The notes beneath the pieces are model-generated. The model did not search any database. It was not told where the DNA came from and saw only the letters and a program-made list of their open reading frames with translations. The position numbers were made by a program, and so were the translations under genes. Shown piece by piece: positions 20,865 to 26,451 of a DNA stretch of 32,848 bases. Origin of the DNA: Oscillospiraceae bacterium (lineage in GTDB: Bacteria; Bacillota; Clostridia; Oscillospirales; QAMX01); the NCBI GenBank assembly GCA_015068345.1, contig SVKS01000014.1:1-32848 (forward strand), in the 5' to 3' direction. Every line of letters begins with the position of its first letter. The stretch's first letter is position 1.

Positions 20865-20904
20865 AACAAAATTACCCCCTGTCGCAAGACAGGGGGTTTT
20901 TGTT
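20865..20904 (+). terminator. Terminator of the hydrogenase operon
   Basis: CCCCCTGTC-gcaa-GACAGGGGG followed by TTTTTGTTTT. Confidence 0.9.
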
Positions 20905-20926: not shown

Positions 20927-21785
20927 GCATATGCGATCGATCCGCATTTGCGGAGCGATCATGTAGGGGCCGTACCAAACGGAGCGAAGCGTAGAGCGTG
21001 TCGGCCCGGTCGCAGGAATGGGCGGTTTGTACGATACCAGATCTGTGGCGTTTACCTCCGGAGGGGATATGTGCATCCTGGAGGCCCCGGGCGGGCCGAC
21101 ATGCGCTACACTCCTTCGTCGCTGCGCTTAGTGCGGCCCCTACGGGGATTCCGGAGGATTTTCGTTCATAAAGCGACCGCCCGGGGTGGGCGGTCGTGGG
21201 GGCGGAGCGATCAAGTAGGGGCCGTACCAAACGGAGCGAAGCGTAGAGCGTGTCGGCCCGGTCGCAGGAATGGGCGGTTTGTACGATACCAGATCTGTGG
21301 CGCGTACTCCGGAGGGGATATGTGCATCCTGGAGGCCCCGGGCGGGCCGACATGCGCTACGCTCCTTCGTCGCTGCGCTTAGTGCGGCCCCTACGGGGAT
21401 TCCGGAGAAATTTCGTTCATAAAGCGATCGCCCGGGGCGGGCGGTCGTGGGGGCGGGCCGACATGCGCTACGCTCCTTCGTCGCTGCGCTTAGTGCGGCC
21501 CCTACGGGGATTCCGGAGGAATTTCGTTCATAAAGCGACCGCCCGGGGCGGGTGGTCGTGGGGGCGGGCCGACATGCGCTACGCTCCTTCGTCGCTGCGC
21601 TTAGTGCGGCCCCTACGGGGATTCCGGAGAAATTTCGTTCATAAAACGACCGCCCCGATCGATGGTCGTGGGGGCGGGCCGACATGCGCTACGCTCCTAT
21701 GTCGCTGCGCTTAGTACGGCCCCTACGGGGATGCCGGAGGAATTTCGTTTATAAAACGACCGCCCGGGGTGGGCGGTCGTGGGGG
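20927..21785. repeat. Tandem array of GTAG elements: two ~251-bp units, then ~111-bp units, abutting the RAYT gene
   Basis: Anchor ATGCGCTAC at 21101, 21352, 21463, 21574 and 21684 gives spacings 251, 111, 111, 110; most units contain CGACCGCCC-NNNNN-GGGCGGTCG or a variant plus CGGCCCCTAC (GTAG on the minus strand). Confidence 0.92.
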
Positions 21786-22271
21786 TTATGGGGTGATGTT
21801 GTGTAGCATCATCCATTTGGTAGGGTTATTTTCGATGTATTGCCAGGTTTCGTCGTAATCCTGCTGATTGCGGATAACGTGGTCGTAGTAGGATCTTTGC
21901 CACAATTTCCCGTGAAATGGGGGCAAAAAACCCGCTTTGACGCCCCGGATATAATCGTTGGTGGTGATGGTTTTGAAATACTGCATGACGTCCGGAATTG
22001 CCTGCCTCGTCTGCGTTTCCCCTATGGTGATCATCAGGTGCAGGTGATCAGGCATGATGACGTATTTGTCCACGGTGACGCCGGGGAAATGTTCCTCCAG
22101 AAGGCGCAATCCGCGGCGCAAAACACGATTCCCCATGGAATCGTTTGCCGGGGGTTCCATTTGGAAGAGATTGGCGCGATCCTGGGTGCAAAGGGTTACA
22201 AAGGTGCATCCCGCGGTTCCGTAATCGTATTCCGACAAACGGGGTTGCTTGCGTTCCGGTTTGACAGGCAT
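21786..22271 (-). CDS. REP-associated tyrosine transposase-like protein (RAYT, Y1_Tnp family)
   Basis: 161 aa; YVIMPDHLHLMITIG (HUH-type HLH), CTFVTLCTQDRANLF, WQRSYYDHVIRNQQDYDETWQYIENNPTKW. No partner tnpB is visible. Confidence 0.9.
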   Translation of the reverse strand: MPVKPERKQPRLSEYDYGTAGCTFVTLCTQDRANLFQMEPPANDSMGNRVLRRGLRLLEEHFPGVTVDKYVIMPDHLHLMITIGETQTRQAIPDVMQYFKTITTNDYIRGVKAGFLPPFHGKLWQRSYYDHVIRNQQDYDETWQYIENNPTKWMMLHNITP

Positions 22272-23328: not shown

Positions 23329-23400
23329 GTCCCCTGTCGCAAGACAGGGGACATGGTTTTGTCTTAGAGATTTTCAAAATAGAAGGGCTTGCCGGTCTTG
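23329..23400. repeat. Direct repeat copy L (72 bp): terminator hairpin plus duplicated 3' end of the oxidoreductase gene
   Basis: gtcccctgtcgcaagacaggggacatggttttgtcttagagattttcaaaatagaagggcttgccggtcttg; 6 mismatches to 25328-25399 by hand alignment. Confidence 0.9.
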
Positions 23401-23493
23401 CTTAATTCTACCATACGTATAAAAACACGCTCCTTTGTTTTTTCTTGCCATTAACATACCACAAAATTGGCTTAATTACAAGAAACCAACCAC

Positions 23494-24585
23494 TCAAAAG
23501 CCTTCCTTCAATGCCTGCGGATACCGTTCGCGGATCCGTAACATGGATAGTGCCAGCTCTTCCGGTGTGCTTCCGTCATATTGTGTGAAATCACGGTATC
23601 GGGATATGGAATATGCCCGACCATCTGTTACGTGAAAAATCGCATGGGTTCGTGTGGAATAAGAATCAAAATGCTTTCCTTCGTGCTCGACGGCATAGTC
23701 TTCTCCGTCATACCCGAGAAAGAACATCCACTCTTCTCCTTTTTCCAATTCGGCCCGAAGTTCCTTCGATAGTGAGCGGGGGACAAAAGCAAGCCGGTCA
23801 CCTTTTTCAAAACCACCCCAGAAGCATTCACTAATTTCCAATATATAATAAGGCTGTACGGTTTCGAGAGCTCCGCCGGCTTCCAATTCTTTTTTTAATG
23901 CTTCCGGAGAAAGCTCCGCCGACAGGTCAATCGTACACTCCCCCTGTTCCACGATTCGTCCGGTTACGGTGCAGGGAACCAGGGAATACCAGATCATCCC
24001 CTGGGGCCAATTGCTCAATACATAGTTTTCCATCGGATCGGGAAAGAAGTCGGTCTTTTCTTCGTCGATTCCTTCCCGATAGGGACTCTCCTCTCCGTTA
24101 TAATAGGCATATACGCCGTAATTTCCCACAGCGGCATGGAGTTTTTCATCGTAGAGGAAAATTTCCCCCTCCGGGTCCAGATCATTCACTTGTTTCTGTA
24201 TTTCTTGGATTTCCTTCTGTAATTTGTTATTCCGGTCAGCATCTTCTCCCATTTGGCTCATCAGGGATTCCATTTCATCCATCATATTCCGATAGGCTTC
24301 GTACTGCTCCAGGGGAGGGGTATTTTCATCCTGAAATAGCGGATCATTTGCCATTTCATATAATAGATCCTGATACAGGCTTTCTTTTTCGCTATCTATG
24401 ATTTGCGCCAGTTTTTCTTCCATAGACTGGTTTGAAAAAGAAGCTTCAGAGTTTGAGATGGATTCTCCGTGAAGAGCGGGATCCTCGGTTGGGAACTCTT
24501 CAGTTTGCACATGACATCCGGAAAGAAATACCGGAAGCAATAGGAATAGTACCGTAACGATACGATATACCACATGATGATTCAT
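23494..24585 (-). CDS. Putative lipoprotein of unknown function
   Basis: 363 aa; N-terminus MNHHVVYRIVTVLFLLLPVFLSGCHVQTEE with lipobox LSGC; RBS GGAGG. Confidence 0.8.
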   Translation of the reverse strand: MNHHVVYRIVTVLFLLLPVFLSGCHVQTEEFPTEDPALHGESISNSEASFSNQSMEEKLAQIIDSEKESLYQDLLYEMANDPLFQDENTPPLEQYEAYRNMMDEMESLMSQMGEDADRNNKLQKEIQEIQKQVNDLDPEGEIFLYDEKLHAAVGNYGVYAYYNGEESPYREGIDEEKTDFFPDPMENYVLSNWPQGMIWYSLVPCTVTGRIVEQGECTIDLSAELSPEALKKELEAGGALETVQPYYILEISECFWGGFEKGDRLAFVPRSLSKELRAELEKGEEWMFFLGYDGEDYAVEHEGKHFDSYSTRTHAIFHVTDGRAYSISRYRDFTQYDGSTPEELALSMLRIRERYPQALKEGF

Positions 24586-24599
24586 ATAAGAAAACCTCC

Positions 24600-25292
24600 T
24601 CAGGGATTCGGATAAAAACCTTCCAAAACCGAAATATCATAGTTTGTTACGTAATGAATCCGATCATTAAATTTTTCCGGCTTCCATAATGGATGCATGA
24701 CGGATTGTTTCACATCTGAGTTGATGTGCCCCATCCCAAGAACATGGCCAATTTCGTGGCGCATGACCCACATGCGGTTATACAAGGTAAGTGTTTCTGT
24801 TGGCACCTTAAAATAGATGCGTGCGTAAGTTGCTGTGAAATTTGTACCATATCCCGGAGGTTCACCATCGGAGTCCATAAACCATTCTTGGGATGCATTC
24901 TTATGATTCGTGACGGCAAACGCTAGTGTATATGTTGCGTTCCGATTAATGAAATGATTTCCGGGAGCAGTATATAAGTCACATTTGGAGTTTGCAAATG
25001 CAACATCATAAGCATATACCTTGTCCTTTTCGTAACTGAATTGCTGATCCAGAGTATTCCAATGATAAACAGAATCTGCGTATACGTTTGTGTAGGCAGT
25101 AATATCAAGTTCGTCCTCTGCTAATTTCAGTCGGCATTTCGTGACATCACCATTGGCATTCACATAAGTCCATGTCCATCTAACTCGTTCGAAAGTTCCC
25201 GCAAACGCCCCCATTTCTTCGGCTGTTGCAGGAATGCTTGTGAAGAAAAGGAAAACGAATGCGGTTGCAAAAATTCGTAGAAATTTCTTCAT
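24600..25292 (-). CDS. Secreted metzincin/matrixin-like zinc metalloprotease
   Basis: Signal peptide MKKFLRIFATAFVFLFFTSIPATAEE; zinc motif HEIGHVLGMGH (HExxHxxGxxH) and Met-turn-like SVMHP; RBS AAAGGAGG before ATG at 25292. Confidence 0.87.
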   Translation of the reverse strand: MKKFLRIFATAFVFLFFTSIPATAEEMGAFAGTFERVRWTWTYVNANGDVTKCRLKLAEDELDITAYTNVYADSVYHWNTLDQQFSYEKDKVYAYDVAFANSKCDLYTAPGNHFINRNATYTLAFAVTNHKNASQEWFMDSDGEPPGYGTNFTATYARIYFKVPTETLTLYNRMWVMRHEIGHVLGMGHINSDVKQSVMHPLWKPEKFNDRIHYVTNYDISVLEGFYPNP

Positions 25293-25327
25293 ATATAGCC
25301 TCCTTTGGAGAAGAAATAGAAAACCAT

Positions 25328-25399
25328 GTCCCCTGCCGCAAGGCAGGGGGCATGGTTTGGGCTTACAGATTTTCAAAATAGAAGGGCTTGCCGGTCTTG
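25328..25399. repeat. Direct repeat copy R (72 bp), overlapping the 3' end of the oxidoreductase gene
   Basis: gtcccctgccgcaaggcagggggcatggtttgggcttacagattttcaaaatagaagggcttgccggtcttg; final 33 nt identical to copy L. Confidence 0.9.
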
Positions 25400-26451
25400 G
25401 CGGAGGTGTAGATGCCTTCCAGGATGCAGGAGACGATGTAGGCCTGTTCGGGCAGGACGCAGGGGTCCTTGTCCTCCAGAATGGCCCGGATCCACTGCTT
25501 GGCTTCGATGACCTGGGGTTCTTCGTTGCCTTCGCCGTCGTAGAAGGCGGCGCCGCCGGCGTTCAGGTTGGGTTTGTAATCAAACTGACGGTTGTGGGTG
25601 ATGCCGTTGATGCGCAGGCCGTCTCTCATGTCAGCGCCCAGCTTGGTGCCGCAGAGGGAGACCGAGGCTTCGATGACGTCCAGGGTGTTCAGGGCCCAGG
25701 AAGCTTCCAGGTTGATGGTGGCGCCGTTTTCCATGACGATGAAACCGAAGGCGCTGTCTTCCACGGTGAACTTTTCGGGATCCCAGTTGCCCCAGGCGTT
25801 GCCCTGGTTGGTGTCATTGTTGAGGGCGTGGTAGGTGGTACCGACGCAGTACTTGGGCTTGTAGTTGTTGGTGAGCCAGAGGGTCAGGTCGAGGGCGTGG
25901 GTGCCGATGTCGATCAGCGGGCCGCCACCCTGTTCGTATTCGTTGAGGAACACGCCCCAGGTGGGAACGGCGCGGCGGCGAACGGCGTGGGCCTTGGCGT
26001 AGTAAACGTCGCCCAGCTCGCCATCGTTGGTCATGAGCTTCAGGTGCTGGGAGTCAGCACGGTAGCGGCTCTGGTAACCGATGGTCAGCTTCTTGCCGGT
26101 CTTCTTGGCGCATTCCAGCATCTTCTTGGCTTCGGCGGCGGTGTAAGCCATGGGCTTTTCGCACATGACGTGGCAGCCGGCTTCCATGGCGGCGATTGAG
26201 ATTTCGGAGTGGCTGCGGTTGGGGGTGCAGACGTGAACAACGTCCAGGGTTTCCTTTTCCAGGAGTTCCTTGTAGCACTTGTAGACTCTGGCACCTTCCA
26301 CACCGTATTCGGCGGCGGCCTTTTCGGCGCGCTCTACGATGATGTCACAGAAGGCAACGATTTCAACTTCGGGGACCTGCTTCAGGCTGGGCAGGTGCTT
26401 GCCGTTGGCAATGCCGCCGCAACCGATGACGGCGAGTTTCAGCTTGCTCAT
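25363..26451 (-). CDS. Gfo/Idh/MocA family oxidoreductase
   Basis: MSKLKLAVIGCGGIANGKHLPSLKQVPEVEIVAFCDIIVERAEKAA..., VCTPNRSHSEISIAAMEAGCHVMCEKPMAYTAAEAKKMLE. Confidence 0.95.
   Translation of the reverse strand: MSKLKLAVIGCGGIANGKHLPSLKQVPEVEIVAFCDIIVERAEKAAAEYGVEGARVYKCYKELLEKETLDVVHVCTPNRSHSEISIAAMEAGCHVMCEKPMAYTAAEAKKMLECAKKTGKKLTIGYQSRYRADSQHLKLMTNDGELGDVYYAKAHAVRRRAVPTWGVFLNEYEQGGGPLIDIGTHALDLTLWLTNNYKPKYCVGTTYHALNNDTNQGNAWGNWDPEKFTVEDSAFGFIVMENGATINLEASWALNTLDVIEASVSLCGTKLGADMRDGLRINGITHNRQFDYKPNLNAGGAAFYDGEGNEEPQVIEAKQWIRAILEDKDPCVLPEQAYIVSCILEGIYTSAKTGKPFYFENL

Follow-up and report, generated by a model that had tools for sequence, protein, structure and literature searches.

How a two-gene islet with no integrase of its own came to lie between two copies of the 3′ end of a host gene is the question raised by positions 23329–25399 of the window (the whole 32,848-nt stretch of DNA that was analyzed). 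The initial annotation had likened this arrangement to the attL/attR sites of elements that integrate in gene ends, and had offered the replacement of a tandem oxidoreductase paralogue as an alternative.

Organization and content of the islet

All of the genes concerned lie on the minus strand. The Gfo/Idh/MocA oxidoreductase gene of the host (gfo; 26451–25363; Pfam PF01408, E 7e-32) is followed by the right repeat (25328–25399), a metzincin gene (25292–24600), a lipoprotein gene (24585–23494), a distal spacer (23401–23493), the left repeat (23329–23400) and, beyond the islet, the host acetyl xylan esterase gene AXE1 (23233–22274; Pfam PF05448, E 9e-122). The 2-kb islet comprises two genes, arranged as a metzincin-lipoprotein operon. 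The first encodes a secreted, matrixin-like peptidase of the metzincin type, with a signal-peptide-like start and an HExxHxxGxxH site (HEIGHVLGMGH), which is matched by Pfam PF00413 (E 1.6e-7) on the longer reading 24600–25376; no solved homologue was found by sequence. The second product carries an LSGC lipobox, has no match in Pfam, NCBIfam or PHROG, and has distant paralogues in G000 (the genome containing the window), G001, G002 and G003.

In the genomes searched, relatives of the lipoprotein were seen within the genus alone, and none was detected outside it in 396 genomes of the order at E 1e-10. At loci L059, L061 and L065, lipoprotein paralogues lie in tandem and have repeated 5′ regions of high similarity, which suggests local duplication of this family in the genus. 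Apart from the islet itself, the sole match of the metzincin among the same 396 genomes was a 32% relative in G040, with none further in a 388-genome sample of the class. Locus L212 (3555–4865), which belongs to another family of the order, likewise has a lipoprotein gene immediately behind a metzincin gene. Since the G040 metzincin gene directly precedes a lipoprotein gene, whose product is weakly similar at its C-terminus, the pair looks like a standing two-gene module. A viral or plasmid origin of the cargo was rejected, as the cargo had no match in the viral collection and the metzincin none in plasmids.

The islet had been described, without computation, as more AT-rich than its neighbors, and this proved correct: its GC content is 0.436, compared to 0.58 for the rest of the window, and in a 486-kb sample of the genome only 21 of 2069 stretches of the same size were similarly low. 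The GC3 values of the metzincin (0.39) and lipoprotein (0.46) genes are likewise far below those of seven other genes of the window (0.73–0.82). A native composition was not found; the composition of the islet DNA is foreign.

Alignment of the two repeats reproduced the initially annotated counts exactly (66 of 72 nt matching, 6 mismatches), with 33 identical nucleotides at the coding side (23368–23400 in the left copy, 25367–25399 in the right), and ungapped extension lengthened the match to 79 nt at 89%. In a search of the whole 2.8-Mb assembly, the 72-nt sequence occurs at these two places only (E 7e-32 and 1e-23). As had been proposed, the intact gfo gene has its functional 3′ end in the right copy, and the left copy is an isolated fragment that encodes the same residues (KTGKPFYFENL-stop) without the gene body. 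On the upstream side, homology between the copies ends exactly at the 33-nt core. On the other side, in G000, it runs 39 nt beyond the core into the terminator, where the islet hairpin segment and the native terminator differ at 6 of 39 nt; the compensatory change in the terminator stem, also noted initially, is a real pair. No structured RNA with an Rfam match was found at the repeats. A third copy of the terminator hairpin, CCCCTGTCTTGCGACAGGGG, lies behind a hydrogenase gene (20876–20895), so that, taken by itself, the hairpin has less specificity than the coding portion of the repeat, and a larger role for terminator similarity was dropped.

The statement that no integrase is present held: no recombinase or integrase was found in the islet, neither of whose genes encodes one, and none was recognized among the ORFs of the window. 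The islet also contains no transposase, its ends carry no terminal inverted repeats, and no convincing inverted-repeat arms surround the repeat core. Some recombinases work without clear arms of this kind. A Y1/RAYT transposase gene (21786–22271) lies outside the islet, beside an array of REP-like repeats (21000–22271) that have relatives elsewhere in the window and in G003.

No second islet with a duplicated gene 3′ end was detected in a 529-kb sample, about a fifth of the genome. Besides the present islet, the sample showed only tandem paralogues, tandem repeats and dispersed intergenic repeats, and a recurrent class of such islets in this genome was rejected. Inspection of the gene end in about 109 relatives revealed no other islet at the site, but only a tandem paralogue (L089, distant) and a non-coding repeat (L090); a gene-end hot spot was rejected on these grounds.

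Exchange between two species and position of the boundaries

Comparison of five genomes of the genus (G000–G004) revealed islet DNA in two, G000 and G003, which represent distinct species and carry the islet at the same place; G001, G002 and G004 lack it. The assemblies of both known carriers are fragmented drafts (199 and about 550 contigs). A strict empty site (gene-terminator-esterase), which the initial annotation had suggested seeking, was not found in the five genomes, this gene order being confined to the two carriers. In the other three, the site shows a different gene order or contig ends and is uninformative in this respect: the esterase is preceded by other genes, and the oxidoreductase gene, found in G001 and G002, is followed by other sequence.

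The divergence between G000 and G003 was determined at four-fold sites. Within the islet, it amounts to 1/143 for the lipoprotein gene and 0/30 for the metzincin gene (together 1/173). The background values are 31/157 (AXE1 esterase), 50/292 (ABC1) and 62/272 (ABC2), from which the islet differs with a Fisher p of about 1e-13, and 15/77, 29/206, 9/118 and 7/45 for genes of the hydrogenase region. Pooled over these seven nearby genes, the background is 203/1167, and the islet lies about 30 times below it. Divergence so far under background indicates a recent horizontal exchange of the islet, which postdates the separation of the two species. Contamination of G003 by G000 does not account for this, since the same G003 contig holds its own diverged esterase gene. 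The oxidoreductase body (11/153) is at the low end of the background, which appears only mildly unusual because this gene evolves at about 0.7 times the rate of the esterase (0.224 vs 0.309 between G001 and G002). In G003 the metzincin gene is broken by a 454-bp internal deletion at a short GATATT match, which indicates that it is dispensable there.

The last part of gfo before the islet (25375–25486) differs between the two species at 12 of 112 nt, a background-like level, vs about 27 of 1519 nt in the islet (Fisher 5e-6). Divergence is zero from 25374 to 25302, remains low throughout the islet except at 23830–23970 (the distal spacer, which ends in AGC before the AAGACC of the repeat, is about 97% identical), and returns to background past the left repeat. 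As judged from this profile, both boundaries of the islet fall inside the repeats. Between the two islet copies, that of the window and that of L033, about a dozen differences cluster at 23830–23970, in 140 nt of the lipoprotein gene; all are transitions, mostly A to G, and several alter the encoded amino acid. A further local patch, eight differences from L033 within 22 nt (25465–25486), lies close to the oxidoreductase gene end and is far above the average of the gene.

Each species has its own core, TTCTATTTT or TACTACTTC, which occurs in both of its repeat copies. Both left copies have CTC as their last codon, like the outgroups G001 and G002; both right copies have CTG. G000 and G003 share an identical right hairpin, whereas their left terminators are unrelated. 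The ancestral codon and lineage-specific terminator on one side, and the common CTG and hairpin on the other, identify the left copy as the displaced native gene end and the tail of the right copy (CTG-TAA plus hairpin) as sequence that came with the islet and regenerated the end of the gene. On this comparison the right repeat is native up to about 25375 and islet-borne from about 25369, CTGTAAG and the hairpin being the same in G003 next to a gene segment of background divergence. The attL/attR-like layout described initially is thereby borne out: a new gene end is supplied by the islet, the native one lies beyond it, and the boundaries are inside the repeats. The resemblance of the islet hairpin to the native terminator of G000 suggests that the islet probably came from a close relative of G000 and not from G000 itself. 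The hairpin between the oxidoreductase and metzincin genes lacks the long T run of native terminators, and a promoter would have little space there, which makes it likely that the islet genes are expressed by read-through from the oxidoreductase gene.

Route of insertion and competing explanations

The locus is probably, though by no means surely, a horizontally exchanged, integrase-less genomic islet inserted at the gene end by homologous or short-homology recombination. The islet would be a metzincin-lipoprotein operon that brings along a copy of the host oxidoreductase gene end, and may have entered by recombination within a gene-end sequence of roughly 30 nt, most simply as a presumed circle, or as a fragment, with gene-end sequence at its ends. 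The stop codon and hairpin brought by the islet would then have completed the host gene, and the native end would have been displaced beyond the islet, where it now forms the left copy. An illegitimate junction formed at AGC|AAG may have created the unit in the first place, in the manner of homology-facilitated illegitimate recombination (PMC2884548, PMC5361080). This route is favored because precedents exist (the microcin H47 island and single-crossover insertions, see below) and because searches turned up neither a recombinase or transposase nor a terminal inverted repeat or RNA element. Several points argue against it. A plain single crossover would be expected to leave one repeat with the donor core, but both are of native type in both species, so that mismatch repair or later conversion would have to be added, which is the weakest step; the homology in common, about 30 nt, is close to the length that RecA usually requires or falls short of it; and only two carriers are known, both as fragmented drafts, with no empty site in the present gene order.

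It is less probable, but deserves serious consideration, that the islet is a non-autonomous integrative element (CIME- or pseudo-SCC-like), either a cargo unit or a decayed remnant, whose gene-end att sites are recombined by an integrase acting in trans. A gene-end target, a regenerated gene end, direct repeats, foreign cargo and precise boundaries within the repeats in two species would all be accounted for. Such an element agrees poorly with the lack of a recombinase in the islet or window and of a clear inverted-repeat core, with the lack of any other islet at this site in about 109 relatives and of any other islet with a duplicated 3′ end in 529 kb of the genome, and with a cargo that matches neither the viral collection nor, for the metzincin, plasmids. 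The initial likening to integrative elements stands, therefore, as regards foreign composition, insertion at a gene end and the att-like arrangement; for a dedicated site-specific element, the integrase, clear inverted-repeat core, terminal inverted repeats, second site and hot spot were all lacking. A related and more doubtful possibility is that the gene end is the true target of an unknown trans-acting system which duplicates about 30 nt of native target; the islet would then be a minimal, repeatedly mobile cargo unit with the captured gene end and terminator as its sole mobility signal.

An old insertion in the common ancestor, inherited vertically, with gene conversion in each lineage maintaining the similarity of the repeats, would explain the common site and the species-specific core of both copies. 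It is made very improbable by the low four-fold-site divergence of the islet (1/173 vs 203/1167) and by the unrelated left terminators. Transposition by an unknown transposase in trans, with a long target-site duplication (about 9 to 32 nt), seems hardly plausible: a duplicated target would indeed place the native core in both copies in both species, but the islet has neither terminal inverted repeats nor a transposase, the site is the same in both species, the two copies in G000 remain homologous for 39 nt of terminator beyond the identical core, and the nearby Y1/RAYT gene is outside the islet beside REP-like repeats. Scarcely credible, finally, is the initially proposed remnant of a tandem oxidoreductase paralogue, its body replaced by the islet or deleted: one distant relative (L089) does have a tandem paralogue, and the frame of the left copy is shared by a short reading, MVELSKTGKPFYFENL, that follows a Shine-Dalgarno-like AAAGGAG, but the ATG of this reading is ATT in G003 (a short peptide from the left copy was rejected for this reason), genomes of the genus with a match hold a single gfo copy, with no full second gene at this place, homology on the upstream side goes no further than the 33-nt core, and the left copies have retained the ancestral codon at their end along with lineage-specific terminators.

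Relation to known systems

With recombination at the gene end as the preferred reading, the locus presents, at the level of sequence, a case in which cargo moved between species, with both boundaries in a duplicated gene end and no recombinase. It offers a means of testing to what extent small islets can spread by ordinary recombination at about 30 nt. It may also illustrate a simple route from single gene to operon, in which an incoming piece swaps a strong terminator for a weaker hairpin.

Integrative elements found at gene 3′ ends, such as SGI1 at trmE and SCC at rlmH, encode integrases or recombinases. Like them, the islet regenerates the gene end and has direct repeats on both sides; unlike them, it has no integrase. 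The microcin H47 island of E. coli is mobile, recombinase-less and flanked by direct repeats (13 kb, with repeats of 144–148 bp), and its excision and integration have been detected experimentally (PMC3191183, PMC5426353). The islet is similarly small, with long imperfect direct repeats, no recombinase of its own, apparent recombination within the repeats, and horizontal presence/absence (two of the five genus genomes); it differs in its 2-kb size, in having repeats made of a gene end, and in that its mobility is deduced from comparison of genomes alone.

In E. coli, single crossovers of circles carrying a partial gene end leave gene-end duplications of 109–950 bp (PMC3240628). The islet resembles such insertions and those of homology-facilitated illegitimate recombination (small variable segments, PMC2884548), in which foreign DNA is captured beside a homologous gene, sometimes with partial duplication of its end; in contrast to these, it was exchanged later between species, with its boundaries again in the repeats. 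A further parallel is provided by the downstream-shifted immunity genes and orphan 3′ ends of T6SS/Rhs loci (PMC5361080), where an incoming module supplies a new end and the ancestral segment is pushed downstream, although the islet contains no effector or immunity gene and the displaced piece is an 11-codon fragment with its terminator.
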